Assembly (NCBI GenBank): GCA_903863885.1 | Contig: CAIPEB010000507.1 | Coordinates: forward strand, 1 to 64,000 | Direction: 5' to 3' | Source: an uncultured Planctomycetaceae bacterium | GTDB taxonomy: Bacteria; Planctomycetota; Planctomycetia; Pirellulales; Pirellulaceae | Length of the DNA stretch: 64,000 nucleotides | Part shown: piece by piece, positions 4,368-33,520 of the stretch | Layout: each line of letters starts with the position of its first letter | Position numbering within the stretch: position 1 is the stretch's first letter | Translations under genes and position numbers: made by a program | Notes under the pieces: model-generated | The model's input: only the letters and a program-made list of their open reading frames with translations | What the model was told of the DNA's origin: nothing | Database searches by the model: none

Positions 4368-4402
4368 CCATCGGTTCGGCAAGTGTCGGAAAGGCCCTCG
4401 TC

Positions 4403-6741: not shown

Positions 6742-6785
6742 ACAGAAACGACAGCTGCCTGGCCGAAGGCAACGACGAGGGACCC

Positions 6786-7928: not shown

Positions 7929-8004
7929 GAAATTACCGTCGAATCGTGGCGGCCAGGGCGATCTGCGGAAAGACCCCTCGGAAAGCCGCCTGGAGGAGCC
8001 TGCC

Positions 8005-10758: not shown

Positions 10759-10885
10759 GCGCTCAAATCAAGGCGTGTTTTCGTCGTGCCGTGATTCGAC
10801 GCAACTAGTCGCCGTCGCGATCGAAAACAGAGATTAAGGGGAGTTGCCCGAACCCCTGCGGCTCGGTGGAAACGGAGATGTCTCG

Positions 10886-16109: not shown

Positions 16110-19100
16110 TCAGTTGCCCGGGCCCGGCGGCGCGACGCGAGTCAACGGATAGTCCGCGATGCCGACCAGTTCCAGCGGTCCCGCCGTGGGATACTGACGC
16201 TGCTCCTGGCCGGCTGAGTCCGCGGTGACCGTGCGTTTCACGTAGTTGACGACCTCCGACCACCGCACGATCCCATCGTGATCGCCGTCTTGTTGATCTG
16301 CGTCGCCCCGCAGTGCTTCGAGCAATCGGTTGGTGAAGCGGCCAAGCCTGCGCTCACGCTGTTCCACGGCCTCTTGTCCGCCTTCGGACGCAGTGAGCGT
16401 AAACATCAAGTCATCCTGCAGTGCGCGAAGCGCTGTCTTCAATTCCCGTTGACCAAGCGGGGCCACGGCGCCGCTGTGGCACGTGTCCAGGATGACGAGT
16501 TTGCGGCAGGGCACATCCGCGAACATCGAGAAATCCTCGAATGACAGGCAATCGCCGAATTGCCGCCCGGTGACGTCGAGATATCGGGCGTTGGCGGTGA
16601 CGTAGTAGTAGCTGTCCAGTTCCGGATCGCACACTCCATGCCCCGACAGAAAGAACACCAGCAGATCATCCGGGTTAACCTGTTCACGCAATTCGTCGAC
16701 GTAATGCTGGAGCGTCGTCTTCCAGACGGGACGCGTGACGTCGTCGTTGACGATGGACAGGATTTCCTGCCCGTACAGCGGTTGGGCCCGTTCTCTCAGC
16801 ATTACCGCGAACTGAGCCGAGTTGTTGACGGCATAGTCCAAGCGTGGAATCTGCGCATCGCGGTAATGATCGATACCCGCGGCAGCCACGAACAATCGCG
16901 GAGCCCGCGGCGCGGTTGCTGCTTTGTGGGAGAAGCAGATGCTTTCGGTGCCGACGATCTCAGCTTCAGTGGAAGCCACGACCTGCAACAGAATTCGCGG
17001 ATCCGATGGGAGGCGAGCATCCCATTGATAAGTGAACGTGCGGCCTCCGGATGCCGCCTGTTCATCAACCAGTACGCGATTGGTTGCCACGACTCCGCTG
17101 GCGAAAGCCTTCGGCGGCACCAGTCGTTGTCCGTTGCGAATCGTGACCGACGCTCGGACCTGCACGGAGTTCCCATCCACCGTCTGATCGGCTTTCGGCG
17201 AAAGTATCCTCACTGCAGGCTTCTGATAATACGCATCAATAACCGCGCGTTGGGGTTGAACCGGTGCATCGTTGCGAACTGCACGAAAGGCCGCATCCAG
17301 CGAACCCGCGCGGAGCAGGCGCGACATGACTTCGGGCCGCTCCAGCGCTTTGCGGAGTTGTGCGGCCAGAAAGAAATCCGGCAGCAACTGCAGTCCGCGG
17401 TTCACCTGCCAGCCGAACAGCTTGTGACCCTCGAACGATGCGTCGTAGTAGCCCGAAGGGGCCCAATAGGCCCACTCGCGCGACTCGGCGACCGCCAGGG
17501 AAACGAGCGGCTGCCACGCGGGAAAGATCTGGAATGGTCGAGCCGGCGCGCGACCGCGAATATATTCGAAGGCCACCATCGTGTCCCACGGCAATTCGCG
17601 CAGCGTCCGCAGCATCGCTTCAGGAGCATCGCTCGACTGATACTGCAGGTTTCCCTTGTCGTCGAGCCCGTCGGACCACCGCAAGCGTTGAATGACATCG
17701 CCCTGCCGGATTCCGCGGAAATAGACGGGTCCGTCTTCGCGAACCGAGCTGACGGCAAGTTGGCCCGACTGAATTTCGAAATCCGCGCCCCATCGCTGCG
17801 TCATTGCGCTGTCATGGAGCCAGTCCCGCAGAGGCCAGATTCGGATCGTCGCGTCCATCGATGCTGACGCCAGATAGCGACGATCGCGAGACACACTGAG
17901 CGAATTGACGCGGCCGCTATGGCCGCGAAAGACCTGCAGGATCGGGCATTCGCCCTGAGGAGCGAGGCGGAACACATAAATGTTGCCGCTGGCGCTCGTG
18001 CCGATCGCCACCGCAAAAGGACGCCCGGCCTCATCGGGAATCCATGCCCAGGCGCTGGGGGCTCCCTGCGAGTTCGGGTCCAGCGGGATCTTGCCTTTCG
18101 GTTCACCCCGCTCGAGGAGGCGAAAACTCTCCAACGCGGTCTTTGCGTCCCGCTGGACTTCGACGCCCCAACCCTGCGAGTCTGCATTTTCCGGTACCCA
18201 ATCCCGCTCGTTGATCCGGCTGGCCTCGTCGATCTGCACGCGGTCCGTATCGAAAGCGTGTTGCAACGGGACTGAATCGCCGGTGCGCTCGGTGCCAAAA
18301 GCAAGGCGATAGAGCGGTGCCTCCCGCGCAAAGGCAACCCGCAGCGGCGGTCGCATGCCGGCCTGCAGTCGCTCCGCGAGTTTTGCGTCCATCAACGGAA
18401 TCACAACAAGGTCGTTTCCGTCGGCGTAAGCACAGAACTTGCCATCAACGCTCAATGCGCACGCGGATACGTTGTTTCGGGACACGATGTCCTGTTTGGT
18501 CCGCAGCGGTTGATGCGGGTCACTTACATTCCAGATTTCGACGTGCGATTGTCCCTGTGATTCTGCGGTGCCGGCAGCCAGCGTCGTCCCGTCGCCGGAA
18601 TAGGTGAGCGAAAGCGGTACTCGCGAAATGCGTGTCTCGACGACGCCCCCGCGCAGGTCCCATACGAAAAAGCGATGGGCCGGGCTCGCCTTCAATTGCG
18701 CCGCGTCAGCAGATGCCATGCTCGATCCATTCGGCGCGGCAGCGAGTGCCGTAACGAATCCAAGATGAAAAATCGTCTGCTGACCCGCGACCAGTTGCTT
18801 CTCGCCGTTTGCCACATTCGAGATCTGCAGTTGCCACGCAACGAGGCTTGGGTTGCGCGGATCAACGGCATACACCGGAAAAACCACGTGCTCAGCGTCC
18901 GTCATCACCAGCGGGGACGTACCGCGATAGGGATAGAGCTTCCGTGCAATTTCACGGCCGTAATGCTCAACGTCGGTGGCCTGAATCTGGATTGCCTTCC
19001 AGAGGCCGGTCTCCGCGTCGGGCCGCCAAAAGAGCACTCGTCCATCGCGATCCTGAGAGACAAGCCCTTCGTGTTTCGGGTCTGGCGAAAAGGCCAGTGA

Positions 19101-19964
19101 CACGATCACCTGGCGATGCCCGATGCGCTCGTCGTACAACGCCGCCCGCAGATTGCCCGTGATCGCATCGAGCAGCAGAATCTCGCCAAGGCCGCCCATC
19201 GCTCCATGGCCGCCGATTGCGACCAGATTCTCCCGCGTGGCCAGGGCGTGAATCCGGCCGCTGTTGCCCCGCTGCACCTGCCAGAATACGGATCGTTCGT
19301 GCCGCCATTCGGGACGAAGCGAGTCGTTGTTTCCCCGCCTCCACATGAGCAAGGCCTTGTCTTCACCTGCCGAACAGAGTCGCTGCGAATCCCAGGTGAA
19401 TGCCAGCGCACGCACCGGCGAGACGTGACCCGCCAGATTCAATCTGAGCCAGGGAATGGCATCGACACTCTGAGCGAGATTCAACGAGGCCGGTGCCGAG
19501 CCGTCGACTTTCTCGGTCTCCACTTTTTCGGGCGGCGCCTTTTCGGTCGGCTCTTGTTCGGCGGCAGCCACCCAAGTCGCAGGCAGCACCAGTTCGCTGG
19601 GCAAAACCGGTGTGGTTGCAGGTGCGCCCGCAGGAGCCCTTTGTTGACCGGAACCTTCCGGTTCCTGCGCAGCACCCGGTTCTTGCAGGGGCTTTTCAGC
19701 CGTCGGCGGTTCGAGAGTTGAAGGAGTTTCCGGAGGCGACGGTGGCTCTGCGACTTGAACTGCGAATCCGGCCGGCAGCATCGACTCGGGCGGCAACTTC
19801 AGGGCCGGTGCGGAAACAGCAGGCGGCCAGTCGCCGGGCAGGACGGATTCCGGGGGCAGAGCTTCAGCCGCGGGAACCGGTACATGCGAATTCGAGACCA
19901 GCGAAACGAAAAGTGCGGCCAGAAAACAGAATTGGTTTCTTCGAGGCACGCATGAAACGCTCAT
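16110..19964 (-). CDS. Secreted WD40-repeat protein with C-terminal caspase-like (C14) domain
   Basis: 1,284 residues from the ATG at 19964. A signal peptide (FCFLAALFVSLVSNS region) is followed by a Pro/Glu-rich segment to about residue 160 that contains three copies of an L-P-x-E-x-x-L-P motif. The middle contains many WD40-type blades (LAGHVSPVRALAFTWDSQRL, RGHSGRVNSLSVSRDRRYLASASMDATIRIW). The C-terminus is a caspase-fold peptidase with catalytic His1109 in FFLSGHGV and Cys1162 in LDTCHSG, followed by an EF-hand-like DHDGIVRWSEV. Both catalytic residues are present, so activity is expected. The HtrA-like protease gene follows it. Location outside the cytoplasmic membrane is predicted from the signal peptide only. 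Confidence 0.9.
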   Translation of the reverse strand: MSVSCVPRRNQFCFLAALFVSLVSNSHVPVPAAEALPPESVLPGDWPPAVSAPALKLPPESMLPAGFAVQVAEPPSPPETPSTLEPPTAEKPLQEPGAAQEPEGSGQQRAPAGAPATTPVLPSELVLPATWVAAAEQEPTEKAPPEKVETEKVDGSAPASLNLAQSVDAIPWLRLNLAGHVSPVRALAFTWDSQRLCSAGEDKALLMWRRGNNDSLRPEWRHERSVFWQVQRGNSGRIHALATRENLVAIGGHGAMGGLGEILLLDAITGNLRAALYDERIGHRQVIVSLAFSPDPKHEGLVSQDRDGRVLFWRPDAETGLWKAIQIQATDVEHYGREIARKLYPYRGTSPLVMTDAEHVVFPVYAVDPRNPSLVAWQLQISNVANGEKQLVAGQQTIFHLGFVTALAAAPNGSSMASADAAQLKASPAHRFFVWDLRGGVVETRISRVPLSLTYSGDGTTLAAGTAESQGQSHVEIWNVSDPHQPLRTKQDIVSRNNVSACALSVDGKFCAYADGNDLVVIPLMDAKLAERLQAGMRPPLRVAFAREAPLYRLAFGTERTGDSVPLQHAFDTDRVQIDEASRINERDWVPENADSQGWGVEVQRDAKTALESFRLLERGEPKGKIPLDPNSQGAPSAWAWIPDEAGRPFAVAIGTSASGNIYVFRLAPQGECPILQVFRGHSGRVNSLSVSRDRRYLASASMDATIRIWPLRDWLHDSAMTQRWGADFEIQSGQLAVSSVREDGPVYFRGIRQGDVIQRLRWSDGLDDKGNLQYQSSDAPEAMLRTLRELPWDTMVAFEYIRGRAPARPFQIFPAWQPLVSLAVAESREWAYWAPSGYYDASFEGHKLFGWQVNRGLQLLPDFFLAAQLRKALERPEVMSRLLRAGSLDAAFRAVRNDAPVQPQRAVIDAYYQKPAVRILSPKADQTVDGNSVQVRASVTIRNGQRLVPPKAFASGVVATNRVLVDEQAASGGRTFTYQWDARLPSDPRILLQVVASTEAEIVGTESICFSHKAATAPRAPRLFVAAAGIDHYRDAQIPRLDYAVNNSAQFAVMLRERAQPLYGQEILSIVNDDVTRPVWKTTLQHYVDELREQVNPDDLLVFFLSGHGVCDPELDSYYYVTANARYLDVTGRQFGDCLSFEDFSMFADVPCRKLVILDTCHSGAVAPLGQRELKTALRALQDDLMFTLTASEGGQEAVEQRERRLGRFTNRLLEALRGDADQQDGDHDGIVRWSEVVNYVKRTVTADSAGQEQRQYPTAGPLELVGIADYPLTRVAPPGPGN

Positions 19965-20329
19965 GGTGGCGGCCCATTCAATCAGGCTAGTAGAGTCCGG
20001 AGGCTGAAGAATCCAAACGCGATAGCCCAGTGCCGTGGGTTGAACCCCGCGTCTGCCTTCATGCCGTCGCTGCGCGACTCCCGACTTTGTCGTACGAGTG
20101 ACACGGATGAAAATGGACAGCAACTGCAGTTCCGTTGGACACCTTTGTTATCGAAGGCGATGTTGCGAAGTTGCCCGTTTTGCCGCGGATATCAGGAAAC
20201 TCCGACCCTGCAGTTTCGATAACACGGGACAAGGGTGAGTTGTCGCATTGAATCATGCGGCCGGAGGGCGTGGTTTCAACTGCGGATGAGGCTCCATGCC
20301 CGAAGCCGTCCAGTGTGAGGTGGTTTCCC
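19965..20329. promoter_or_regulatory. Divergent intergenic region between WD40-caspase and VWA-TPR genes
   Basis: This 365-base stretch separates two diverging genes and must contain both promoters unless the VWA gene starts upstream at 20255. It contains a 10-base inverted repeat, TGTTATCGAA at 20146-20155 and TTCGATAACA at 20215-20224, centred about 70 bases apart. I could not identify convincing -35/-10 boxes. No gene is evident in it. Confidence 0.4.
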
Positions 20330-22471
20330 ATGACTCGAACCACGTTGCGCGGCGCGGGATCTACGTTGAAGGCCATTCTCGTCTGTGCGGGGTTCGTGAG
20401 CTTGACGATCGTGTGCTCGAGGCAATGGGCTGCCGAGAACCAGCCGGTCCATGGTTCCACGGAAGCTGCATTGACGACGATTTTCAGTCCGATACGTGCA
20501 CCCGCGTCCAAGACAATGGGGTTGGTGCAGAGGAATTTTCTCGACCTGGTGGAAGTCAGCAGCGCCAAGCTGCAGGTAGCCCTGGTTATCGACGGCACGG
20601 ACAGCATGGGAACCGCGATTGACGATATTCGCCGCGCGCTCCATCAGATGATCGATGACTTGCGACGTTACAAGGACGTGACATTTCAATTGGTGGTGTT
20701 TCGCGATGAGGGCTCGCCCTCCGGTCCGGTGTCATTTCCGTTGGACACACCGCAGCGTTCGTTCACGGCGGACCCGGATGCGCTGCATGCGGCAATTGAA
20801 AGCATCAAGCCCGAAAGCGGCGCTCCCTATTTTCCCGAGTTGATCGATCTCGGAATTTCCAAGGCGCTGACGGACTTGGGCTGGTCGAAGGATGCCGACA
20901 CTTCGCGATGGCTGCTGATTTTCAGCAACGCGCCGCCGTTCGATGAGGGATTTGACGAGCCGGCATCCAAGGCTTCGCGGCGTTTCGCCACGCAGCAGCT
21001 GATCAGCACGGCTGCCCGCCTGGACATCAAGCTTAATTGCGTGCTGTGCCCCTGCCGCGACGAAGACAAGAAATCCTACGAACAGACTCTGGCCAAGACT
21101 CGGCAGTTCATGAGCCAGTTGTCGGGCGATACGGGAGGTTTGATGCTGGATTTGTCGTATCCCGACATTCGCAAAGCGCTGGAGAAAGCCGCGCAAACCG
21201 AGCGGGTCACGTATCAACCCATCGGGCAGATCCGACGAGAAGATATCGACGAGGCCCGCAGGGCGGAGGCGGAGCAGAGGACACTCCTGGCCTCCAACCG
21301 GCGCCTGCAAATCGCGATCCTGCCGCATATGTCGCTTGACCGGTTGTCCTTCGACCCGTCGCTGGAAGCAGTGCAGATTGCCGCGGAGTTACGGCATCGT
21401 TTTCGTGCGATCCCCGGCGCCGAGTTGAAATCGCCACTTGCCATCGAACGTCAGGCGGCCCTGTTACAGGCTCGCGGAGTGCGAGGTGAAAAACTGCTCC
21501 CGGCGCTGGCCAGCGCGCTCAACGTGGATTACGTCGTGTGGGGAACCGTTTCGCAGTCGCAAGGGAACACGGAAGTCAAATCGGCGATCTACGACAAGGC
21601 GAAGAGCCAGGATATCGTGGCGGACTTTGTCCGTTCCAGTTCCGGGCTGCCCGTGACGGAACTGACGGGGCAGCTTGCATCCAGCCTGGGAAACAAGGTG
21701 CGATCCGGAAACGTCGATCTTCGGCTGGCCGCGGCCTTCTCCAGCGTGCAACCCAATTCGTCCGCCGATGCACGACTCGTCAACCCGGTCTCGCTTACAG
21801 TTCAAGGACGAACGAACTTGCTCGCCGGGTTCGAAGAGTTGGAAAAGGCGCTGGCCTATGCAGCGGGCAGCGCGGAGGCGGAGCCGCTGCTGAATCAGGC
21901 CAGAAAGAGTCTCGAGCAAGCGCGAAGCGAGGATCAGCAGAACCCGCTCGTTTACCTGTTGTTGGCAAACGCCTGTTTCAATCAATCCCAGGCTCTCTCG
22001 CACGAAAATAAGGTTGACGACTCAAACGCGGCGCTCCGCGAATGCGCTCAAGCCTTGAGTCTGGCTTACCGTTTTCGGCGCGAAGCGAAGTTCAGTTATC
22101 TGCGCCGGGAAATCGAGGCAGACCATGCGCTCTTGATCTCCAAGGACATTCCGGCCGCCATCGAGGCTTACGAGGAACTTTGCCGTGTCACTCCCGACAC
22201 GCCTCTGCACACCGCCCTGCGGGCTCACTGGATGCTTGCGGGCATCTACAGCGGCGATTGGGGTGTGGCCAGGGACGAGAAGAGCAAACCTCTGGTCGAT
22301 GCGGTCAAGGCCCGCAACCATCTGATTCAGATTCTTGCGCACTGGCAGGACAGCAGCGAAGCTGCGTTCATACGTCGCAATCTTCGCTGGGACGAGGACA
22401 CGGGCACTAACCGCTTTGAGCAGTTTCCTCGCACGAACGAAACGGCCTCGGGCAAAATCGTCGGCGCCTGA
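20330..22471 (+). CDS. Envelope VWA-domain protein with TolB-like and TPR-like regions
   Basis: 713 residues from ATG 20330 (MTRTTLRGAGSTLKAIL); an in-frame ATG at 20255 gives 738. The N-terminus has a hydrophobic signal/anchor segment (LKAILVCAGFVSLTIV). A VWA domain spans about residues 75-300, starting VALVIDGTDSMG, where the metal site reads D-x-T-x-S in place of D-x-S-x-S. The middle (LQIAILPHMSLD, then LLPALASALNVDYVVWGTVS) resembles TolB/CsgG-type N-terminal domains. The C-terminal third is helical and TPR-like (NPLVYLLLANACFNQSQAL, IPAAIEAYEELCRVTPD). It diverges from the WD40-caspase gene and converges with the kinase gene. VWA domains bind proteins in a metal-dependent way; the partner is unknown. 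Confidence 0.85.
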   Translation: MTRTTLRGAGSTLKAILVCAGFVSLTIVCSRQWAAENQPVHGSTEAALTTIFSPIRAPASKTMGLVQRNFLDLVEVSSAKLQVALVIDGTDSMGTAIDDIRRALHQMIDDLRRYKDVTFQLVVFRDEGSPSGPVSFPLDTPQRSFTADPDALHAAIESIKPESGAPYFPELIDLGISKALTDLGWSKDADTSRWLLIFSNAPPFDEGFDEPASKASRRFATQQLISTAARLDIKLNCVLCPCRDEDKKSYEQTLAKTRQFMSQLSGDTGGLMLDLSYPDIRKALEKAAQTERVTYQPIGQIRREDIDEARRAEAEQRTLLASNRRLQIAILPHMSLDRLSFDPSLEAVQIAAELRHRFRAIPGAELKSPLAIERQAALLQARGVRGEKLLPALASALNVDYVVWGTVSQSQGNTEVKSAIYDKAKSQDIVADFVRSSSGLPVTELTGQLASSLGNKVRSGNVDLRLAAAFSSVQPNSSADARLVNPVSLTVQGRTNLLAGFEELEKALAYAAGSAEAEPLLNQARKSLEQARSEDQQNPLVYLLLANACFNQSQALSHENKVDDSNAALRECAQALSLAYRFRREAKFSYLRREIEADHALLISKDIPAAIEAYEELCRVTPDTPLHTALRAHWMLAGIYSGDWGVARDEKSKPLVDAVKARNHLIQILAHWQDSSEAAFIRRNLRWDEDTGTNRFEQFPRTNETASGKIVGA

Positions 22472-22502
22472 AGACGATCGTGCGACAGCCGGATTACGGT
22501 TG

Positions 22503-22537
22503 CTTGATGCGCGCATTGCGATTCGGCGTGCATCAAG
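22503..22537. terminator. Hairpin between convergent genes (possible bidirectional terminator)
   Basis: A 12-base stem (left arm CTTGATGCGCGC at 22503-22514, right arm GCGTGCATCAAG at 22526-22537) with one G-T wobble and an 11-base loop lies between the ends of the convergent VWA-TPR and kinase genes and overlaps the kinase stop codon at 22533-22535. There is no T-run on either strand, so it is not a classic intrinsic terminator; it could protect transcript 3' ends or limit read-through. Confidence 0.4.
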
Positions 22538-25157
22538 TGCTGATGACGCTGCGGCCGCCGTCAGTTGCTTTCGGTTCGATACCCATTTCGTCGCAGGCCT
22601 CTTTGACGAGAATGCAACGGCGAAGGTCCCAAAGGAGAATCGTGCCGTTGCTTGTGGCCGCGATAACGGACTTGGCGGTCACCAGAACCTGAACGACACG
22701 TCCGGCATGGCCTGCGAGCATCGTCGGTTTGCGCTGCGCGTGATTGAGATTCCACAGACCGACGTTGCCGTCTTCGCCGCCGCTGCATAGCCATCCTGCC
22801 GGGCGGGAAAAGACCAGCGAGCGGATCGCGCCGGCGTGGCGGCCGTTGAGCAGAAGCGGAGGTCCCTCCTCGCCTTGCCAGACCTGTACATCGCCGGCAG
22901 CGCTGCCGCTGGCCAGAGTCGGAAAGCTCGATTTGGCCGGTCGAGTGATCGGATCGAATACGACCGCGTAGATTTCCGCTGCATGTCCCTGGGGGAGCGG
23001 TCTTGCCGTTGCCCGATCCGATTGAATCAGATGGACCCGGTATTCAGCGTTCGCCTCGGCGCCGCCTCCAATCGCAATCAGCTTTCCATCGGGTGAGACG
23101 CACATCGCACTCACGTCGCCGACGGGCGATCCGAGAGGCACGTCAATCGCAGCTGCGTCGGGCAACAGAAGGTCCCATTTCTTTATCGATCCGTCATCAC
23201 CGATTGAAAAGGCCCAGCGACTGTCTGGCGTGATGACGATCCCGCGCACGCTGACATTATGTCGGCCCAGCGTTCTGGCTTCCGCATCGCTTGACGCGGA
23301 TCCCAACGGGAACGCTCGCACGTTTCCGTCGTAACCTCCCGCAACGAGCCATTTGAGGTCGGGCGTGACGGCCAGTTCGGTGCCCTGCAATGATGCCGGC
23401 TCGATCGTCTTTGTCGCTGCTCCGTTTTCGTCGAGCAACGTCAGCCTGATATGGTCGGCGATGTCGGCCGAGGCCACATACTGCCCGGCCATGGCCACGT
23501 TGCAGATGTGGTCTGTGTGCTCGTGCAGCAGGACTCTCGGACGATTCAAATCGTCGAGATTCCACAGGGCGATCTTGCGTCCCTCCACGCGTGCAGCCAG
23601 CCACGGTCGGTTTGGATTCAGTGCCATGCAGCGGACCGTGAAGTTGTATTCCTCCTCGGCTTCATTCAAGCGGCGGACCGGCGGAGGAATCATGGCGAAC
23701 CGCGACGCGTCGAGTTGCATCGCGTGCTGGTACAACTTGACGGCGACCTCGAGCTGGGACAAATCCGGTGAGTCGCCATCGACGATCTCAAAGGCACGCG
23801 TCGCATCGGTCTGAGCAATCCGTCGCAGTTGATCCGCGTCTCTCTCGAGCGAAATGACAAGAGTGTTGCTGCTTGACTGTTTGACGAGCACCTTTCGTTT
23901 TGCATCGCGATATTCGGGGCTCTTTCGCACAAGAATATCTAGCTGTGCGTCGCCGCGGCGTTTGAGTGTGACATGCCCGGATGCGTCGGCGGCGACGCGC
24001 GCGCCGTCCACAAACACTTCGGCGTCTGCCGGAACGACCTGGAAGGTGACGGTTTCCTCGGACACCGTTGCGGATGTGCCCGCGGGGTTCTTCGGCGTCG
24101 AGACGCGAGAGTTCTTCCACTGGAATCCGCACCAGACCAGCGATGCCACAACGACGACTGCGGTGATCAGAACAGCCGTTTTGCGCCAGGGCGAGGGGCG
24201 GGCGATCGCGATCTCTTTTTGCTCAACGGCGCGCCGCAGCGCGCGAACCATCGCCACCGTCGAAGGGTAACGGTCTTCCGGCTTGACGGAGACTGCTTTG
24301 TGGATGACTTCGCGTTCGTTGGGAGTCAGCCCCGACAAATCCAGGTTGCCGCTGCAGTGCGCCTCGATGACGTCCATCCACGATTCGGAATAGAACGGCA
24401 ACCGGCCGGTGCGCAGCTCTGTGTAGGTTACCGCCAGCGAGTACTGGTCGGATGTGGCCGACGGTTTGCCCTTTACGCACTCCGGCGCCATGTAGGCCGG
24501 CGAACCGGCCATGCTCGTACCCGTCGCCGCCGTTTTGGCATCGGTGAGAAAGCGAGCCAAGCCGAAATCGCAGATCATCACGCAATCACTGGTCAGCATG
24601 ATGTTCGCGGGTTTGATATCGCAATGTTGAATGGCGACGGGACCCTCACCCAAGTCGTGCGAGGCCGTGTTGAGGAAATCGATGCCTTTCGCGGCTTCCT
24701 CCATATACCGAAGCAGTTCTTCGCAAGGGATGCCGCTCATTCCTTGCTGCTTGCACTCTTCGAGGCGGTCCGAGAGGTTCTTGTCGCAGAGCAAGGTGGC
24801 GACCACCAGCCGCTGCGGCGCCTGACCGGTCGCCGCGCTGGACATTGGCATCAGCGTGGCTCGAGGCGCGGGTTCGCCTGCGGCATAGCTGTCCAGCACA
24901 TCGTCGCCCAAGACGTTGCCCTGTTCATCCAGCAGCCAGAGTGCCATCGTAGATGTCAGGTGCGGGTGCCGGACCGACTTAAGACGCTGAACGGCTCGAA
25001 ATTCTTTGATGCCTTGCCGTTCGGACAGATTGAGGAACTTGAGAGCAACGCTGGCGCGGCCGGGCGACGTTGCACGCCATACCTCGCCGAAAGCGCCGCG
25101 TCCCAGGAATTCCTCAAGTCGATAGCCGGGTACCGGTTCGTCACCCTTGTGTAACAT
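22533..25157 (-). CDS. Transmembrane Ser/Thr protein kinase with PEGA and WD40 ectodomain
   Basis: 874 residues. The N-terminal kinase has the Gly loop GRGAFGEV (19-26), Lys40 in VALKF, catalytic loop HCDIKPANI (178-186), DFG (197-199) and SPAYMAPE, all needed for activity; the loop is HCD where HRD is usual (non-RD type). A transmembrane helix follows at about 325-345 (VLITAVVVVASLVWCGF), then a PEGA-like domain (VVPADAEVFVDGARV), a helical stretch and WD40 repeats to the C-terminus. The kinase is thus cytoplasmic and the PEGA/WD40 part external, as expected for a sensor kinase. It could phosphorylate the target read by the FHA protein of the adjacent T6SS operon. The gene diverges from the outer-membrane protein gene; 197 bases separate them. 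Confidence 0.93.
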   Translation of the reverse strand: MLHKGDEPVPGYRLEEFLGRGAFGEVWRATSPGRASVALKFLNLSERQGIKEFRAVQRLKSVRHPHLTSTMALWLLDEQGNVLGDDVLDSYAAGEPAPRATLMPMSSAATGQAPQRLVVATLLCDKNLSDRLEECKQQGMSGIPCEELLRYMEEAAKGIDFLNTASHDLGEGPVAIQHCDIKPANIMLTSDCVMICDFGLARFLTDAKTAATGTSMAGSPAYMAPECVKGKPSATSDQYSLAVTYTELRTGRLPFYSESWMDVIEAHCSGNLDLSGLTPNEREVIHKAVSVKPEDRYPSTVAMVRALRRAVEQKEIAIARPSPWRKTAVLITAVVVVASLVWCGFQWKNSRVSTPKNPAGTSATVSEETVTFQVVPADAEVFVDGARVAADASGHVTLKRRGDAQLDILVRKSPEYRDAKRKVLVKQSSSNTLVISLERDADQLRRIAQTDATRAFEIVDGDSPDLSQLEVAVKLYQHAMQLDASRFAMIPPPVRRLNEAEEEYNFTVRCMALNPNRPWLAARVEGRKIALWNLDDLNRPRVLLHEHTDHICNVAMAGQYVASADIADHIRLTLLDENGAATKTIEPASLQGTELAVTPDLKWLVAGGYDGNVRAFPLGSASSDAEARTLGRHNVSVRGIVITPDSRWAFSIGDDGSIKKWDLLLPDAAAIDVPLGSPVGDVSAMCVSPDGKLIAIGGGAEANAEYRVHLIQSDRATARPLPQGHAAEIYAVVFDPITRPAKSSFPTLASGSAAGDVQVWQGEEGPPLLLNGRHAGAIRSLVFSRPAGWLCSGGEDGNVGLWNLNHAQRKPTMLAGHAGRVVQVLVTAKSVIAATSNGTILLWDLRRCILVKEACDEMGIEPKATDGGRSVIST

Positions 25158-25354
25158 GGCATCCCCCTCGACCTGATCGGAGGCGCCGCCTCGTCAAAGG
25201 TTAACATTTACCTCGACTCCAATAATTCTACCCGCTTTGACGCATTTTCGCACTTCCACGCAACGATAAGAACAAATGAAGCGGTGATCTCACGGCTATG
25301 GAATTCGCCGGAAGCATCGTGGTTGACGATCCAAACCCGCAACGGATCATCAAA

Positions 25355-26998
25355 ATGAGAATTTTTCCTTCGGTCTTGCGCCGGATAACAAGCTATTCAG
25401 GACGATGTTTGCTGCTGGCATTATTCTGCACAGGCTTCGGGCAGGTTTCGTGGTCCCAGGCACAAGTGCGAGATACCGTTCGCTCGGTTTCTGCAACGTG
25501 CAATTGCGGACGCTGGACATGCCCGATCTGTCAGCAGCATTGTGGCTGCCCTGAAACGGGCGGTTCCAGATCCTCTCGACGGGGAAAGCCTCCCGCCGCC
25601 AGTTCCGAACCAGGCGCTCCAGAAACCGCGCCCGAGGCAACGCCCGACGAAGAATCAGCCGCTCCAAACGCCAGAATCGCGGCGTTGGCGGGCGACTTTG
25701 GCTCTACCGCCGGTCGCTATGGCGCGGTGCCCAACATGATTGGCGACTTCTTGGGGACGAGTCCCGGCACGTCCACGATTTCGAAGAATTTCTTTTTCAG
25801 GGCCCAGGGGCAGATTCTCACGGAAACCCCGCCCGGCGCCCCGGACGGATCCATTGGGTTCACCGTGGGCAACAGCACCAGCTTCGATTTTTACAGTGTC
25901 GGATTGGGAGCGGATAGGCTTCCTCCGTCACCGCAGGCCGATACGTTCCAGGTGACTCAACCCGGGCCGGGCAGTTCCTTTGTGCTGCCGCCTCCGCCCA
26001 ACGGGTTTGCCAACGCAGGGGGAGTCGCGCAGAATCCGACCGGCACCTACGACAACTTCGACTTTTGGGATGTAGTTTTCAGCCAAACCGCCGAAGTCGT
26101 AATTCCGGGCCCCGGCGGTCTCGTGGTGGGCCGCATGAAGCTCGCGGAAAACGTCAGCCCGCTGCCTCGCGACCGAGTCTTTTTCAATTACAGCTTCTTC
26201 GACAACGTGCCACTGAGGAATCCGGGCATCAACATGAGTCGGTACACGCCCGGGTTTGAAAAGACGTTCTTCAACGAAATGACGTCGTTTGAACTGCGAG
26301 CGCCCTTTGCGTCGACGCTCGACAGCCAGTTTGCCGCCGATACCGTGCCCGGATCGGGGCACGCGGAATTCGGCGACGTGTTCATGGCCTTCAAGGCCCT
26401 GGTGTGCGGCGGCGCGACCTGGGACGTTTCCGGCGGTCTGTCGCTCACGCTCCCCACGGCCGACAACACCATCGTCGGGCTGTCCGATGGGACGGAACTG
26501 GTGAAGTTCGAGAACAAGTCAGTGCACGTGATGCCGTTCGTCGGCGGACTGTGGACGCCCTCCGACCGGTTTTTCGCCCAGGGGTTCGTGCAGGTGGACA
26601 TCGATGCCAATGGGGATCCGGTCTACCTGAATCAGTACGGCACCGGCCTGCTGCCGGCAGGGCGAATGCAGGAGACGAACTTCCTGTACGCGGATCTCGG
26701 GATCGGATATTGGATGTACCGGGCCGGCGAGTTCGACAATCGGCCGATCACCGGCATCGCTCCGACCCTGGAAATCCACCACAACGCGTCACTGCAGTCG
26801 GCAGACGTGATACGTTCCGGCGCATTCCAGATCGGCCAGGAATACGAAAACGTCCAGATGACCGATTTGGTGGCGGGCGCCACCGTCGAATGGAAGATGC
26901 ACTCGACCCTTACCGCCGGCTACGTGATTCCCGTCGGCGACAGCAATGATCAGCAGTTTGACGGTGAACTGCGCCTGTTCTGGAATCGCTGGTTCTAA
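25355..26998 (+). CDS. Putative outer-membrane beta-barrel protein with Cys-rich N-terminus
   Basis: 547 residues from ATG 25355 (MRIFPSVLRRITSYSGR); an upstream in-frame ATG at 25298 is possible. After a signal peptide (LLLALFCTGFGQVSWSQA) comes a Cys-rich segment, CNCGRWTCPICQQHCGCP, then a disordered Pro/Glu-rich stretch. The rest alternates polar and hydrophobic residues in barrel-like strands (RVFFNYSFFDNVPL, VSGGLSLTLPTAD, TLTAGYVIPVGDSNDQQFDG) and ends in Phe (LRLFWNRWF), a typical outer-membrane C-terminal signature. Such proteins are common in planctomycetes, with no specific function known to me. It is flanked by the kinase and the VWA/caspase-like giant. Confidence 0.75.
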   Translation: MRIFPSVLRRITSYSGRCLLLALFCTGFGQVSWSQAQVRDTVRSVSATCNCGRWTCPICQQHCGCPETGGSRSSRRGKPPAASSEPGAPETAPEATPDEESAAPNARIAALAGDFGSTAGRYGAVPNMIGDFLGTSPGTSTISKNFFFRAQGQILTETPPGAPDGSIGFTVGNSTSFDFYSVGLGADRLPPSPQADTFQVTQPGPGSSFVLPPPPNGFANAGGVAQNPTGTYDNFDFWDVVFSQTAEVVIPGPGGLVVGRMKLAENVSPLPRDRVFFNYSFFDNVPLRNPGINMSRYTPGFEKTFFNEMTSFELRAPFASTLDSQFAADTVPGSGHAEFGDVFMAFKALVCGGATWDVSGGLSLTLPTADNTIVGLSDGTELVKFENKSVHVMPFVGGLWTPSDRFFAQGFVQVDIDANGDPVYLNQYGTGLLPAGRMQETNFLYADLGIGYWMYRAGEFDNRPITGIAPTLEIHHNASLQSADVIRSGAFQIGQEYENVQMTDLVAGATVEWKMHSTLTAGYVIPVGDSNDQQFDGELRLFWNRWF

Positions 26999-27023
26999 CC
27001 AGGAACACTCCCGCGGTGCGACC

Positions 27024-30000
27024 TCAGCGTCTCGGCAGATCGACTTCGATAGGGCCGGTGGAAATCCAGTTTTCCAACACGTCGCCTTGGCGAATGTCGG
27101 TGACGAACAGCCGGGGGTCCTCGCGTTTCCAGAATTCACGGTCCGCGAATGAAAAAACGTGCCGCACCTTGGCCGCATCCTCGAAGAAGCTGTGCAGGGC
27201 CGTATCGGGCGACGGTCGTATTTGCACCAGCAGCGGGTAGTTTTTCGAGCCCTCCGCGTGCTGTTCCATGACGATGATCTGGTAAGGATCGCCGGAATTG
27301 CCGGGCCGGGGCTGCACGCGCAGCCCTGTTCCCGCCAGGTCGATCGATGCCGGATTGGAGAGATCGACCGGAAAGCTCTCGGCCGGCGCGGCGTCCGACA
27401 TGTTGAACCAGAGTCGCACTTCAGCGCGTTGTGATTCGAGCGGCCAGGGTGAGACTCGAAATCGCAATACCGGGACCGGTTGGTCCGGTTCGAATTCCGC
27501 GTCGCCGATGAAGAAGACGCGGTTGCGCGAAGGAAGCTCGCGAATCTCGGCCCAGATGCGGCGAGGACGCTGGCTGAACTGCTCGGCTGCCGCATTCTGC
27601 ACCGACACTCGAAACCACACTTCGTTTGATCCGCGGCGCTGCGGCAGATGCGCGCCGACAAAGAAACGCCGCTCCGGTTTCGCCGGATCGCGAAGATCGG
27701 GCCTGGACTCGCGCAACTCGTCCTCGAATCGAAGATGATCCAGTCGATCGGCCGCGCGGTTAAAGGACAGGAGCAGCGACTCGCCCCCTTCCAGGAATAC
27801 CCTCGAGCTGACCGGGACGTCGTGCCCGGATAACTCGACCGAGTACCAGTCGGCTCCGTCAAAGTCCTTCACGGTCCAGGGCTGGTTCAGAGACAAGAAC
27901 GTATCAGGCGACGGTGCGGGCGCACCTTCGCGATGGACATAATACTTGACCAGCCGCAGCGAATCTCGCAGTTTCTGGAGCAGGCTGCTCGGATCACGGG
28001 CCTCGTGAAAGTCGCCGCCCGACAGCGGATCACGGGCGATTCGCACGAGATCGGCCTGTCCGTTGACCCACTTGCGGCGTTCTTCCTCGTCGGCGAATTC
28101 GCGCTTCAGTCCGAATCCGATGATATCGATCTGCGCGCGGGTCAGCGGATCCTGCAGCGTCTGCTGTGCGCTGTCGCGATCCTTGAGCGCTTCGCGGCTC
28201 GCGCCGCTGGCCGTCTGCTCGTTCACACCGTCGGTGATCACAACCACGTGCCGGGGGCCGGGCAACTCGCGATTGAAGTTCTTCAGGGCTTCGATGATCG
28301 CGAAGTAGAGCGGCGTTTCTCCGAATGGAATCAAAGGGTCGAGCCTCGCTGCGATGACGTCCCGCACGTCCCGCACAGCACCGCCTACCTCGGTGAACTT
28401 CATCGGCCGAACGGGGACGACCAGTTCCACGTCCTCGGCCGGCTGGAGCTGGCGGCGTTTGTCATCTTCCGATCGCCATTTCGGCCGATACCTGCCACGT
28501 TCGTATTCCTCCCAGCCCGCCCGGTGCCCGTAGAGAATCAGCCCGACCTGATACGACTCGGGATCGAGCGCGTCAAGAACTTCGAGCAGACGGCTGCGGG
28601 CGACCTGAAGACGCGTCATCTCCTGCAGGCCTTCGACGGCAATCTTTTCTTTCATGCTTCCCGAACAGTCGAGCACGAAAATGATCTGGGTCTTCTGTGT
28701 CGAATCGCCCTTCACGCGAATGCGGGGAGGTCCGAGTTCCGGTCGCTGGAATTCGACCGTCGCAGCAGGCGCGCCTTGGCCCACGTAGAAACTCGCGGAA
28801 CGGACATGTCCGCGATAGAAGGCGACGGCTTCCATGATCCCGGTGAATTGACGGTCGCCCTTGTTGGACAACAAGTGCTCGAACTTCTGCGCCGCCGATT
28901 CCTTCCCGACTTCCGCGCTGCGTCGGCGCAGCGGAGCCTGTGTTGTCACATCGAGAAGGGGCACAAGTCCACCGCCTGTCCAACGCAGGAACAGCGCGGA
29001 TTCCCCGGCCGGAAGCGTGCCCGATCCGCGCCATTCGATGGAATGCGGCACCACAGCCTCGCCTTCAACAACTTCCACGTCGGCGGAGGCGACCGGTCGC
29101 CATGCAGCGGTTGCCGCGTCGAGCCGGGTCAACTCCTGGGCCAGACGATCCTGGTATGCGCGAGTGGCGTCCGCGAACTGTCCGGCAGCCTGCAGGTATT
29201 CCCGCGCGGAGACGGAGAAGAAACTCGCTGACCGGCCGGTCCACGGCCCCCAGAAGTCGTCGGTCACTCGTTGGCCTTGCCAAAGCAGCCAGAAACTCAC
29301 GTCCAGGGCGCGCAGCTTTCTGCCGGGGTCCTCATCCGGTGACGTCCAGGGACGCTTCCGCAGAATCGCTGCGGCGCAGCGGGTCAGATAGTCCGCCTTG
29401 CTCAATCCGAGCCGGACTTCGCGCGGAGTACTGGCGGTTCCGGCGGCCAGTGCCTTGTCCGTGTCGGCGGCCAGTCGTTCCCGCAATTTGCCGATCTCCG
29501 CCAGGCGAAGGCGAATCTCGCCGCCCATCTCGGCCAAACGCAGGAGACGCAACCGGAGGGCCGTTTCTGCCGGCCGGCCTGCGAGTTCGAGTTTGGGGAA
29601 CTGTCGCACCGTGGGAACTCGCTCGTCGCCGGGCGCCACGCCGGAACGGTCCAGCAGGGCCAGGGCCGGATGGACAGCCAGATCGGTAAGCCACTTGAGC
29701 TCATCGTCGCGTGTTGCGGCGGATACCGGTGCGCCGGCATCTTCGTCTTCGCCCTGGGCCGTGAGATTGGCGAAGAGTTTCTGCCTCAGGTCCTCGCGCT
29801 GATCCGAAACCAGCGGAATCTCGAGCGACCGGGCAATGCGACTGAGCGTCGCCCGGACCTGCCCGGCCTGGGCCACCGCCAGATCGGCGCAGACCTGGGA
29901 ATACCGCCCGAGCAGCTGATCGATCCCGCCCTTTAACCGCCGGGTCTTGTCCGTCAGGTCAGGCACGTCGCCGGCGCTCGTGCTGGTTCGCCAATCCAGG

Positions 30001-32051
30001 GCGGCGGTCAATTCGCGATTCAGTTCGATCAACTGAAGCAGCGATTGGACGAGCGACGACCGGTCCGGCAGTTCCGGATAGGTCAACAGCCACTGCGCGA
30101 GAAAGGGCAGCTTCGAGCAAGCCTCATCGCGCGCAGCATACGCCTGCGCGACATGCTGACCCGCCTGCCGGACCTCGCCGTACTTGCCGGCGGTGCCCTG
30201 CCCGATCAACGCCGCCCATCGCGGTTCGGCGGCGGCCAGCGCCGCTGCACTTCCCACGAACACTTCGTCCCTCGCCAGTCGCAGCTCTTGCTCGGCAGCG
30301 TCGGCCGCAGCGCGAATCCAGTAGTGAACGCGAGCGTCCTCCGGCGCGGCGGTCTGTTCAGCAGCTTCCTGCGCCATGATCAGACGGTGCGGTGAAATTC
30401 CCGGCGCATCCCAATCGAGGCCTCCCGTCATCATTCCCAGCAACGCGGCCTCTTTGCACGGTCGCTCCGTTCGGCCCTGAGACTTTGCCAGGAATTCCAG
30501 CCCGGATGTTATCTGCTGCCGCAGATCTCCCTCAGGCTTTTCAACAAGCGATCTCCACACAGCCGCCGCCGCGGCCGGATACGCGACGGCCGTCGGACCG
30601 GCTGCCTGTTTGGCATCGGCGGGCTTGCCCCTGGATTGGCGCCACGCCGCAAAAGCGGTGTCGGCGGCCTGCACTTCCGCGGATGTCGTGAGGCCCAATC
30701 GCTGCCGGAGAATTACGCTGGCCGTGTCCAAAGTGACCCGCCGCGCCGCCGCGTCGGTTTCCGCCAGAGTCAGCGATCGCTCGATGGCCGTCACTGTCGA
30801 ACGACCCTGCTCCCGGTAAGCTCCGCCCGCCAGCACAAGCGACTCGAGTCGGGCCAACTCGGCAGGGATCATCGCGCAGTCCATCGGCGACCGATCGTAC
30901 AGGCCGGCACGCTGCAGGGCCGCATAACGAACCCAGAGGCGATCGATGGATTTCTTCTGGTCGGCGTCCGGCTTGATCGGCGCGGCAGGCGGTTTGACGT
31001 AATCGGTTACATACGTCAGCCCGAAATCCTCCGCGTCTTCCGGAATCAGCAGGGGCCGCTGCTGCTGCGTGCGATTGCGGTTCACCCAGGAGGCGACGTG
31101 GCTCTGCAGGTATTCGTACAACTCGCGGAGCTTGATTCGCCCGTCCCCGTCGCTGTCGGCCGCGCCCCTCAGGCCGCACGCCACGTAGTATGCGAAAACG
31201 GATCCGCCAAGCTCAGGCGCGGAACAACCACGCTCGTCCCGGCGCGTCGAGTTCAATACGTACAGCCGCGGAAGCCGCTTCTCACTCAGCGTCTGCCGCA
31301 ACACCTCGGCGAAACCGTTGTGCAGGATCCCGCATGACCAGTTCTCCCGAATCCGTCCCGAGTCGAGGATGAGCAGTTTGCGGCTGCGGTCCAGCCGCTC
31401 ATGTCGATTCACATGCGCAATCACGTCCAGAACCGGAACCCACGTGGATTCGTCCAGCGGATCGCTGCCATGCATCAGCAGGCATGGCTGCCCCTTGCCA
31501 TCCACCGCGCCGTGCGCGCTGATATAGAGCAGCAGCACATCGTTGTCGGGAAACAGCCGGCCATTGCCCGGGCCGCCGGGACGCATCTGCTTCAACTGAC
31601 GATCAAGCACCGTTCGCCAGTCCCCATCGCGTCCTTCGATGGCCTGACTGGCGCGGATGTTCCGATACTGCTTGAACGCGGCGTCGAACCGCTGCAGGTC
31701 TTCGGCGGCCAAGGCATTCGGATCAATCGGCGATCGATAGTCGAGAACGGCCAAGGCCATCAGCGGAACGGGCCGCGGTCGAAACAGCATCCACGCGGCA
31801 AAAATCAGCAGAAGCACGATCAGCGAAAGGCCGTAAGCAAACAGCTTGAGACGTTGAACAGCCGCCCGACCCAGCCCCGAGCCGCGCAACTGCGTCCAAC
31901 GGCGGCCAGAGTCCCGGGATGACGAATCGCGAGCTGCGTTTCTCCATCCTTGTCGCCCACGCGACTCGCCCGCAGACTTCCGCCAACTTCCGCGATCCGA
32001 GGGCTGGTTCAAGGGATATGCTCCGAGAAGTTCAGTACCTCTTCGGAGCAT
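27024..32051 (-). CDS. Giant membrane protein: caspase-like domain lacking catalytic Cys, helical region and VWA domain
   Basis: 1,675 residues if started at ATG 32051; an in-frame start at 32099 is also possible. A basic N-terminus precedes a transmembrane helix at about residues 70-90 (GLSLIVLLLIFAAWMLF). Next is a caspase-fold domain with His180 (LLYISAHGAV), but the position equivalent to LDTC in active relatives reads LDSG (Ser231-Gly232), so the nucleophile is missing. An EF-hand-like DSDGDGRIKLREL ends this domain. A long helical segment follows, then a VWA domain with an intact metal site (FVLDCSGSMK, Asp1128), and C-terminal beta-rich repeats. It appears to be a non-catalytic scaffold or decoy of the neighbouring WD40-caspase; this role is inference. 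Confidence 0.85.
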   Translation of the reverse strand: MLRRGTELLGAYPLNQPSDRGSWRKSAGESRGRQGWRNAARDSSSRDSGRRWTQLRGSGLGRAAVQRLKLFAYGLSLIVLLLIFAAWMLFRPRPVPLMALAVLDYRSPIDPNALAAEDLQRFDAAFKQYRNIRASQAIEGRDGDWRTVLDRQLKQMRPGGPGNGRLFPDNDVLLLYISAHGAVDGKGQPCLLMHGSDPLDESTWVPVLDVIAHVNRHERLDRSRKLLILDSGRIRENWSCGILHNGFAEVLRQTLSEKRLPRLYVLNSTRRDERGCSAPELGGSVFAYYVACGLRGAADSDGDGRIKLRELYEYLQSHVASWVNRNRTQQQRPLLIPEDAEDFGLTYVTDYVKPPAAPIKPDADQKKSIDRLWVRYAALQRAGLYDRSPMDCAMIPAELARLESLVLAGGAYREQGRSTVTAIERSLTLAETDAAARRVTLDTASVILRQRLGLTTSAEVQAADTAFAAWRQSRGKPADAKQAAGPTAVAYPAAAAAVWRSLVEKPEGDLRQQITSGLEFLAKSQGRTERPCKEAALLGMMTGGLDWDAPGISPHRLIMAQEAAEQTAAPEDARVHYWIRAAADAAEQELRLARDEVFVGSAAALAAAEPRWAALIGQGTAGKYGEVRQAGQHVAQAYAARDEACSKLPFLAQWLLTYPELPDRSSLVQSLLQLIELNRELTAALDWRTSTSAGDVPDLTDKTRRLKGGIDQLLGRYSQVCADLAVAQAGQVRATLSRIARSLEIPLVSDQREDLRQKLFANLTAQGEDEDAGAPVSAATRDDELKWLTDLAVHPALALLDRSGVAPGDERVPTVRQFPKLELAGRPAETALRLRLLRLAEMGGEIRLRLAEIGKLRERLAADTDKALAAGTASTPREVRLGLSKADYLTRCAAAILRKRPWTSPDEDPGRKLRALDVSFWLLWQGQRVTDDFWGPWTGRSASFFSVSAREYLQAAGQFADATRAYQDRLAQELTRLDAATAAWRPVASADVEVVEGEAVVPHSIEWRGSGTLPAGESALFLRWTGGGLVPLLDVTTQAPLRRRSAEVGKESAAQKFEHLLSNKGDRQFTGIMEAVAFYRGHVRSASFYVGQGAPAATVEFQRPELGPPRIRVKGDSTQKTQIIFVLDCSGSMKEKIAVEGLQEMTRLQVARSRLLEVLDALDPESYQVGLILYGHRAGWEEYERGRYRPKWRSEDDKRRQLQPAEDVELVVPVRPMKFTEVGGAVRDVRDVIAARLDPLIPFGETPLYFAIIEALKNFNRELPGPRHVVVITDGVNEQTASGASREALKDRDSAQQTLQDPLTRAQIDIIGFGLKREFADEEERRKWVNGQADLVRIARDPLSGGDFHEARDPSSLLQKLRDSLRLVKYYVHREGAPAPSPDTFLSLNQPWTVKDFDGADWYSVELSGHDVPVSSRVFLEGGESLLLSFNRAADRLDHLRFEDELRESRPDLRDPAKPERRFFVGAHLPQRRGSNEVWFRVSVQNAAAEQFSQRPRRIWAEIRELPSRNRVFFIGDAEFEPDQPVPVLRFRVSPWPLESQRAEVRLWFNMSDAAPAESFPVDLSNPASIDLAGTGLRVQPRPGNSGDPYQIIVMEQHAEGSKNYPLLVQIRPSPDTALHSFFEDAAKVRHVFSFADREFWKREDPRLFVTDIRQGDVLENWISTGPIEVDLPRR

Positions 32052-32109
32052 TATATCGTGCCTGTCGCGAGTCCGCCCGTGTCGCGGACTCCAGGGCACA
32101 ATCGGCCGT

Positions 32110-33183
32110 TCAGTTTATCTGGGCCGTGACGGTCGACACTCGCACGCCAGGCCGAATTCCAGCCAGGCTCGTTCCTCCGATCGGACGCACGGTCGCCGCG
32201 CCGGAAAACCCTTGAACGACTTCGAGTTCACCGCGGTAACGCGTGCCGGTCGGCAGATCTTCGTAGATCCACAACGTCTCGCCCGGCTCGGGCTTCAAAT
32301 CCCTGTTTTCAAAGTGGACGTGTGCCAGTCTGTTTTCGGTATCAACCTGCATGATCACGCCGGCCAGAGCGTCACTCGCCGCCGACTCGCCGCGATCTCG
32401 CGACTTGACGCGGAGCACGGCGACGGGCGTCGTTTCCTCGCCTGTCATACCGGCGCTCGGCGCCCCAGGCTGCGGAACAGCAGGTGTTGGTTCCGGAGGT
32501 GCCGGAGCCTCTGAGCCCTCACCCGTCTCACGCCGCTCCGCGGGCGAGGGTTCTTCGTCCGGCGCGACCGATGCCGGACCGCGATTCGGGCAACAGGCCG
32601 ATAACGCACGCATCGCAGCCTGCCGAACTCGCATCGATGGTTCCTTGGGGCAGCCCGTGTCGTCCACACCCTGCGAAATCTGGAACAACATGTCGCTGAT
32701 CTTCTGGTTGCAGCAGCAGGTCGAACCGCAATTCGCGCAACACTGGCCCGAAGCCGCTCTTCCAACCGCGTTCACGGTCTCAAGGCGGACTTCTTCCGTA
32801 CAGTCTCCCATGGCCGCAACCAACGCCTCGGTCACGCTCCCGTCGGCGTCGTAGCAACCGCAACCGATCGATGCCAGATACTTGACCGCCTTGATCTTCT
32901 GAGGCTTCAAATCCTCGGCTTTCTTGATCTCGGCCGCTTTCTTAATAGCAGGCACGTCGGATTTGAGGTTTGCCGGATCAGCCAACCGACTTAACGCCGG
33001 CTTCTGCTCCGCGCAGGGATGGTTACCCCCTCGATTAAGGAGTCCCGCATTCACGCGATCCACAGCTTGAGGAATCCCCAAAAACGACCACAGTGTGGCC
33101 GGAGGTTCCTGAGCAGCCGCGTTTGCTGTCAATGCCAGCGATAATCCAGCAGCGAGTATTCGTGATTTGTAGCGATTGGTCAT
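32110..33183 (-). CDS. Secreted Cys-rich HEAT-repeat-like protein
   Basis: 357 residues from the ATG at 33183 (MTNRYKSRILAAGLSLALTA), with a clear signal peptide ending near ANAAAQ; the frame is open further upstream. Residues about 70-200 hold HEAT-like helical pairs (KIKAVKYLASIGCG, VTEALVAAMGDCTEEVRLETVNAVG, MRVRQAAMRALSACC), interrupted by a Cys cluster (CCANCGSTCCCN). A Pro/Glu-rich linker and a C-terminal beta-rich domain follow (VDTENRLAHVHFENRDLKPEPGE and onward). The function is unknown. It lies 58 bases upstream of the VWA/caspase-like gene on the same strand, so the two are likely co-transcribed. Confidence 0.75.
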   Translation of the reverse strand: MTNRYKSRILAAGLSLALTANAAAQEPPATLWSFLGIPQAVDRVNAGLLNRGGNHPCAEQKPALSRLADPANLKSDVPAIKKAAEIKKAEDLKPQKIKAVKYLASIGCGCYDADGSVTEALVAAMGDCTEEVRLETVNAVGRAASGQCCANCGSTCCCNQKISDMLFQISQGVDDTGCPKEPSMRVRQAAMRALSACCPNRGPASVAPDEEPSPAERRETGEGSEAPAPPEPTPAVPQPGAPSAGMTGEETTPVAVLRVKSRDRGESAASDALAGVIMQVDTENRLAHVHFENRDLKPEPGETLWIYEDLPTGTRYRGELEVVQGFSGAATVRPIGGTSLAGIRPGVRVSTVTAQIN

Positions 33184-33520
33184 CGGTAAGATCCTTGGAT
33201 CGCAGAGATATCCGCTGCCCCATTCATTGGATCGAGTACATACCGCAAAAACATTAAACCCATTTCCAACCAACTGTTCAGGCTATCCATCCTTCCTAAT
33301 GTAATGTTCATATTGCTTAGAATCGGGGTGATTCGTAAATCGCGCAGTTTCAGATCCGTTCTTGGCCACGCAGAACGGGGGGCAATTGCGCAGCCTGACC
33401 CAGTGGCGGGCGGCTTCGAGCACATCGTAGGAGGATATGCGAACATTGCGGACGCGCGGATATATTGAATGGCCAACCCGCAGACTTTCACCACCTTCTA
33501 ACCTGAGGTGACGTGTTGCT
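33184..33520. other. Intergenic region without visible gene
   Basis: 337 bases between the diverging Cys-rich HEAT-like gene and the MDR oxidoreductase gene. Short frames here have no recognisable product. It presumably carries both promoters; the only clear signal is the GAGGTGA ribosome site just before 33521. Confidence 0.5.

Follow-up and report, generated by a model that had tools for sequence, protein, structure and literature searches.

Pseudo-caspase/VWA giants linked to a planctomycete type VI secretion system with a truncated TssM may replace its periplasmic arm

We analysed the first 64,000 nucleotides of contig CAIPEB010000507.1 (assembly GCA_903863885.1) from an uncultured Planctomycetaceae bacterium, referred to below as the window. 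It opens with a type VI secretion system (T6SS) cluster and further on encodes two large proteins with caspase-like domains: an exported WD40 protein (the WD40-caspase) and a putative membrane-anchored pseudo-caspase/VWA protein that we call giant A (Table 1). The original prediction made from this DNA had seen in them an active and an inactive caspase, the latter a possible scaffold, inhibitor or decoy. Comparison of 60 genomes (the window's genome and 59 relatives) places giant A with the T6SS genes and a HEAT-repeat gene, and the WD40-caspase with a VWA-TPR gene and the gene of a 566-aa exported protein.

Architecture and dead caspase site of the giants

Translation of giant A probably starts near position 32051, within a somewhat longer open frame. 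Hydropathy analysis finds one membrane helix close to the N-terminus, followed by a caspase-fold domain, a long helical region, a VWA domain and a beta-rich C-terminal part. The VWA region matches VWA structures with a Z-score of 20; residues D1144/S1146/S1148 and T1289-D1290-G1291 are invariant, and giants of the A group have kept an intact metal site. Among 68 giants, 67 have no further transmembrane-like stretch beyond the N-terminal helix and 59 carry more positive charge on its N-terminal side. A single helix preceded by positive charge puts, by prediction, about 1550 residues in the periplasm.

The Pfam Peptidase_C14 model matches neither giant A nor the WD40-caspase, and a profile of the N-terminal half of the giants searched against solved structures returned only helical-bundle noise; the same kind of search with the caspase domain of the WD40-caspase found metacaspase-4 (E = 0.083). 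The NCBIfam model NF047832 for EACC1-associated caspases matches the WD40-caspase (7.7e-20, 71.3 bits), giant A (5.8e-9, 35.7 bits) and a second giant of the same genome, giant B (32.1 bits), all three below its cut-off of 140 bits. An AlphaFold2 model of giant A residues 112–1100 (pLDDT 83, pTM 0.85) superimposes its caspase domain on procaspase-6 with a Z-score of 18.8 (rmsd 2.9, 206 aligned residues), and the top Foldseek match of the domain is MALT1. On the strength of the NF047832 match and the fold search with the predicted structure, we assign the domain to a real caspase fold (clan CD), in agreement with the original prediction.

The His-Cys dyad of active caspases and orthocaspases (C14) is present in the WD40-caspase, in the motifs LSGHGV and VILDTCHSG (His1162/Cys1215 in its longest frame), confirming the earlier assignment of His1109 and Cys1162 in the numbering from the shorter start. 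Giant A carries SAHGAV and LILDSGRI and thus keeps His196 (previously numbered 180), while the second motif contains Asp246-Ser247-Gly248 (previously 230–232). The predicted lack of a catalytic Cys holds, with one correction: Gly248 fills the Cys position, and Ser247 lies one residue earlier, at the place of the T in LDTC. We therefore rejected Ser247 as a replacement nucleophile, as it aligns to the variable residue before Cys.

This loss extends through the family. At the canonical site, 61 of 63 giant caspase domains have no Cys (Gly in 21, Asn in 12, Thr in 8, others in the rest) and two have it, while His is kept in 42 and lost in 21; all 24 WD40-type and other active-type caspase domains keep both residues. 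The giant of locus L107 (G017:C10, about 1640 aa) retains TGHG and has Cys in the nucleophile position (LIIDSCRT); it may still be active, or simply have decayed less. Maximum-likelihood analysis separates 62 of 63 giant domains from the caspases as a single group (support 100/100), leaving out only L024, a weak match of another architecture. From the family-wide Cys loss and this grouping, the dead site probably dates from the ancestor of the giants, and duplication of the adjacent caspase gene is not its source. Origin of the pair by local duplication is ruled out by the tree, which puts the two domains in separate clades. Of the shared origin suggested by the original prediction, what holds is common descent within one bacterial caspase family, broadly taken. 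Both domains do end, as it had noted, in an EF-hand-like, Asp-rich loop (DxDxDG-like), though the loop (GxADxxxDxxVxLxEL) is conserved in sequence through the giant family and is not peculiar to this pair.

Table 1. Features of the window and TssM proteins of a third type at other planctomycete loci
Feature	Coordinates	Strand	Basis
T6SS cluster: TssC, Hcp, ImpE/TagJ, PKMT, TssE, TssF, ClpV, VgrG	88..13024	+	
FHA protein of the T6SS region	13951..14781	+	
WD40-caspase (P0001): exported WD40 protein, C-terminal caspase domain, intact His/Cys	16110..19964	-	
VWA-TPR protein; its gene is the divergent partner of the WD40-caspase gene	20255..22471	+	
566-aa exported protein, no family; goes with the WD40-caspase module	25298..26998	+	
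Giant A (P0002): pseudo-caspase/VWA protein with predicted membrane anchor, 1691 aa in longest frame	27024..32099	-	
Beta-rich C-terminal part of giant A	27039..27851	-	AlphaFold2 model, pLDDT 87
VWA domain with DxSxS metal-site motif, giant A	27951..28697	-	Pfam PF00092, 1.9e-6
Long all-helical middle region of giant A	29103..30965	-	AlphaFold2 model, mean pLDDT 83
Caspase-fold domain of giant A, residues 112–366	31002..31766	-	AlphaFold2 model, NF047832
EF-hand-like Asp-rich loop, end of giant A caspase domain	31119..31157	-	Sequence
Asp246-Ser247-Gly248 of giant A, Gly at catalytic Cys position	31356..31364	-	Alignment
Retained His196 (SAHG) of giant A	31512..31514	-	
Single N-terminal transmembrane helix of giant A	31785..31850	-	Hydropathy
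HEAT-repeat exported protein, upstream of giant A	32110..33273	-	
Third-type TssMs	L199:2979-7493, L201:6039-10484, L203:5796-10397, L205:7064-11542, L207:793-5442		

Giants and a truncated TssM at planctomycete T6SS loci

Further T6SS genes of the window's genome lie on a second contig, C521, which encodes the N-terminal part of TssC, TssB, TssA, a sigma factor, a short TssM, TssL and TssK (TssA, TssB and TssC named from sequence and matches among relatives), with giant B (1562 aa) divergent from them. Since each contig breaks off within TssC at one of its ends, the two probably adjoin, in which case giants would flank the T6SS locus on both sides. Together, the window and C521 hold TssB, C, E, F, K, Hcp, ClpV and VgrG. 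The sigma factor gene is of the sigma-70 type, sits between the short tssM and tssA (L070:2414-3130 on C521; also L054:16539 and G015) and could be a dedicated regulator.

TssF occurs in 26 of the 60 genomes, and DotU/TssL in the same 26 plus G054. Giants are found in all 26 TssF-positive and none of the 34 TssF-negative genomes (Fisher p = 1.4e-17). Plain BLAST matches of any size give 24 of 26 against 3 of 34 (p = 2e-11); the two genomes missed by BLAST (G022 and G027) have giants by profile search, a divergent second giant of G022 adjoining tssL and tssK, and the 34 TssF-negative genomes contain no full-length giant, only shorter caspase proteins in G038, G055 and G056. Both p values overstate independence because the species are related. 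Two giants per T6SS genome are usual; they flank a HEAT gene and in many cases are neighbours of tssK-tssL-tssM. The order giant B-HEAT-giant A recurs in a dozen loci, among them those of Rhodopirellula sp. SM50, Stieleria sedimenti, TBK1r, SV_7m_r, and Schlesneria and Pirellula metagenome-assembled genomes (MAGs), often after VgrG-FHA and before TssK-TssL-TssM. Elsewhere a giant lies directly downstream of the short tssM on the same strand, at 8 bp in L087 and 10 bp in L145, and also in L134, L133, L083 and G164. L133, on a contig labelled Candidatus Kuenenia stuttgartiensis (MAG), has the order giant-short TssM-giant, so the arrangement may extend beyond Planctomycetia. In some genomes, the HEAT proteins beside giants start with lipobox-like signal peptides (L066:6386-7411, L089:12528-14327), so that these proteins could supply the outer-membrane anchor that TssJ would otherwise provide.

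The TssM of these systems is truncated. Beside TssL, the IcmF-related_N domain is encoded in frames of 482–782 aa in the 26 T6SS genomes except G033, whose copy runs off the end of its contig; in the two canonical systems of the set the corresponding frames measure 1045 and 1382 aa. In all 13 complete short TssMs, the third transmembrane helix (TM3) starts 20–31 residues before the C-terminus, and the 540-aa TssM of the window's genome likewise ends after TM3. Profile alignment matches the short TssM end to end with the N-terminal half of full TssM (E = 1e-21), stopping at TM3. A T6SS of subtype i has a full TssM with a periplasmic domain, and a TssJ; the window's genome yielded no match to IcmF_C or SciN. 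Within the set, IcmF_C was detected only in G019, whose second T6SS is canonical, and in G054, which has canonical genes, no TssF and no giant; TssJ was detected only in G019.

IcmF_C alone proved unsuitable as a marker of full TssM, as TssMs of 1480–1550 aa from other planctomycete classes also have no match to it, and we therefore judged completeness by length beyond TM3. By this measure, twelve T6SS loci of other planctomycete classes encode TssMs of 1140–1550 aa with about 690–1100 residues past TM3 (Pfam finds IcmF-related_N in all seven full TssMs scanned), and giants are absent to a distance of about 20 kb from these loci. The 1480–1550-aa proteins constitute a third periplasmic type of TssM: an IcmF N-terminal half is joined to a C-terminal half of about 930–1100 aa that matches no Pfam family and no canonical C-terminal half (Table 1). 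Fission of TssM as the origin of the giants was considered and set aside, since profile alignment of the giants with the C-terminal halves of either TssM type gave no match; a more remote relation may exist.

The WD40-caspase as a separate module

The longest open frame of the WD40-caspase spans 16110–20123 on the minus strand; position 19964 (MSVSC...) is the likely true start, as it would open a signal peptide. In at least six relatives, including the T6SS-free G014 and G012, this gene is divergent to the VWA-TPR gene and near the 566-aa gene, and four relatives carry it with neither T6SS nor giant. Its association with the T6SS is weak (p = 0.03). We conclude that the WD40-caspase forms an exported protease module of its own, which would be no more than an accessory of the T6SS. 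Two further proteins of the window's genome are recognised by Pfam as Peptidase_C14 and are unlike either caspase protein of the window (G000:C83:17241-17891 and G000:C320:5721-6257).

These distributions bear on the proposal that giant A serves the active caspase beside it as a scaffold, a decoy or a c-FLIP-like inhibitor, which now appears improbable. The two genes are adjacent in the window and in G015, abut in L113 and lie within about 10 kb of each other in L133 and L134, and both products appear to be exported to the same compartment; given this proximity in five loci, they may share some pathway. However, 16 of the 26 giant-bearing genomes have no WD40-caspase ortholog above 200 bits and four genomes have the WD40-caspase without giants (association p = 0.03), the two are distant or on different contigs in the near-complete G041, G018, G006 and G017, and their caspase domains belong to separate clades. 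A pairing of giant A with the adjacent active caspase is thus not supported. What survives of the proposed pseudo-caspase role is a likely non-catalytic, scaffold-like function; the active/inactive pair does not, given the different clades and different travelling genes.

A possible place in the T6SS membrane complex

The simplest reading of the predicted topology, the missing periplasmic half of TssM and the undetected TssJ is that the giants form the periplasmic part of a membrane complex. We put at roughly 0.55 the probability that they replace the periplasmic TssM half and TssJ in a lineage-specific planctomycete T6SS. The caspase fold, the family-wide loss of Cys, the strict co-occurrence and gene linkage with the T6SS and the truncation of TssM are established observations; periplasmic placement, a place in the membrane complex and the replacement itself are deduced from them. 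Giants A and B would be paralogous envelope proteins of this system, anchored by one membrane helix behind a short basic tail in the cytoplasm and exposing about 1550 residues to the periplasm, and would assemble with TssL and a TssM that retains its inner-membrane and cytoplasmic half and ends after the third membrane helix. Their pseudo-caspase, helical, VWA and beta-rich domains would reach across the periplasm, binding to one another, to the HEAT protein and probably to the outer membrane. The caspase domain would serve as a protein-binding fold whose catalysis was lost in the ancestor of the family, and the intact VWA metal site of the A group could make adhesion switchable. The odds seem to us even that this defines a distinct T6SS subtype of Planctomycetia (and the Kuenenia MAG), in which a pair of giants and the HEAT protein replace the TssM half and TssJ without homology.

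Several observations weigh against replacement. Giants and the TssM periplasmic domain show no detected homology or fold match; the absence of TssM from the fold matches of the helical part carries no weight here, as caspases filled that list. TssJ is short and divergent and may have been missed, and the absence of giants from full-TssM genomes was assessed near the T6SS only. In some genomes (G041, G017, and G027 at 74 kb) the giants lie far from the T6SS core. VWA domains also serve T6SS regulators such as PpkA. Accordingly, the giants might be envelope sensors or regulators rather than structural parts, with the pseudo-caspase domain binding a signal protein, comparable to the periplasmic VWA part of PpkA or to the TagQRST pathway. 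The VWA domain, the FHA and Ser/Thr kinase-WD40 genes nearby, and the frequent position of VgrG and FHA just upstream of giants would fit such a role, but such regulators are optional in known T6SSs, while every one of the 26 systems has giants, mostly a pair of them, and their presence goes along with the loss of the TssM periplasmic half; we consider regulation unlikely.

It is still less probable that the giants belong to an EACC1/ternary-type conflict or immunity system riding with T6SS loci. Their closest curated model is that of EACC1-associated caspases, and inactive caspase domains and a caspase-vWA fusion are known from such systems, including those of planctomycetes (PMC7159879); yet Pfam shows no EACC1, MoxR or VMAP gene near the giant, and conflict systems are patchy while giants track the T6SS strictly. 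We give similarly little credence, and slightly less, to the idea that some giants remain proteases with a shifted nucleophile. In 20 of 63 giants a Cys follows the Asp, and the motifs of L107, the two giants with a Cys at the canonical site and the His kept in 42 of 63 lend the idea some colour. In 29 of 63, however, the residue following the Asp is Ala, Ile, Leu or Val, and in giant A it is Ser; it corresponds to the variable small residue before Cys in active caspases, and a third of the family (21 of 63) has lost His.

Replacement of the TssM arm would add to a known variability of the T6SS membrane complex (PMC10564176, PMC4793230). As in TssJLM, TssL and the cytoplasmic half of TssM lie beside TssK, and the adjacent giants combine a membrane anchor with a large C-terminal part; here, unlike there, TssM ends after TM3, TssJ is undetected and unrelated pseudo-caspase/VWA giants are in place. 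The non-canonical Acinetobacter complex also has no TssJ and compensates with lineage-specific envelope proteins, but it keeps and extends the periplasmic part of TssM, and its proteins are not caspase-fold giants (PMC10564176). Bacteroidetes T6SSiii does without the standard trans-envelope complex, relying on other proteins of its own (PMC4793230), whereas TssL and half of TssM are retained here. Pseudo-orthocaspases share the p20 fold, the lost His/Cys dyad and conservation as a family, but are mostly alphaproteobacterial or cyanobacterial, tied to photosynthesis and often carry Tyr/Ser (PMC6426788); the giants have Gly/Asn, are VWA-fused and T6SS-linked, and bear a predicted transmembrane anchor. 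From EACC1-associated caspases (NF047832; PMC7159879), the closest curated subfamily by sequence and one with known caspase-vWA fusions, the giants differ in scoring below the cut-off, in having no EACC1 partner and in their T6SS linkage. We know of no T6SSiii counterpart of the giants. Rhodopirellula baltica was listed as a T6SS carrier in 2009 (PMC2660368). The literature searched, which did not extend to subscription papers, contained no paper on planctomycete T6SS membrane complexes, none linking caspase-fold giants to a T6SS and none reporting a truncated planctomycete TssM. If replacement is correct, an unrelated protein with a dead caspase fold can take over from the periplasm-crossing arm of TssM, which is regarded as a core component of the classical T6SS. 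Pseudo-caspases would then gain a structural job, with a dead protease carrying a contractile injection machine across the envelope. This would also account for planctomycete systems that models derived from proteobacterial T6SSs might overlook, and tell which features to search for in them.

Three other genes of the window complete the picture of the region. A PKMT-type gene within the T6SS cluster (2793–4367), a T6SS-linked protein methyltransferase, has relatives near giants in L114, L117, L119 and L123. Between the T6SS cluster and giant A lie the Ser/Thr kinase-WD40 gene (22533–25157) and a trypsin-PDZ (HtrA-like) gene (14785–16263), relatives of the latter occurring near the WD40-caspase in L052 and L072.
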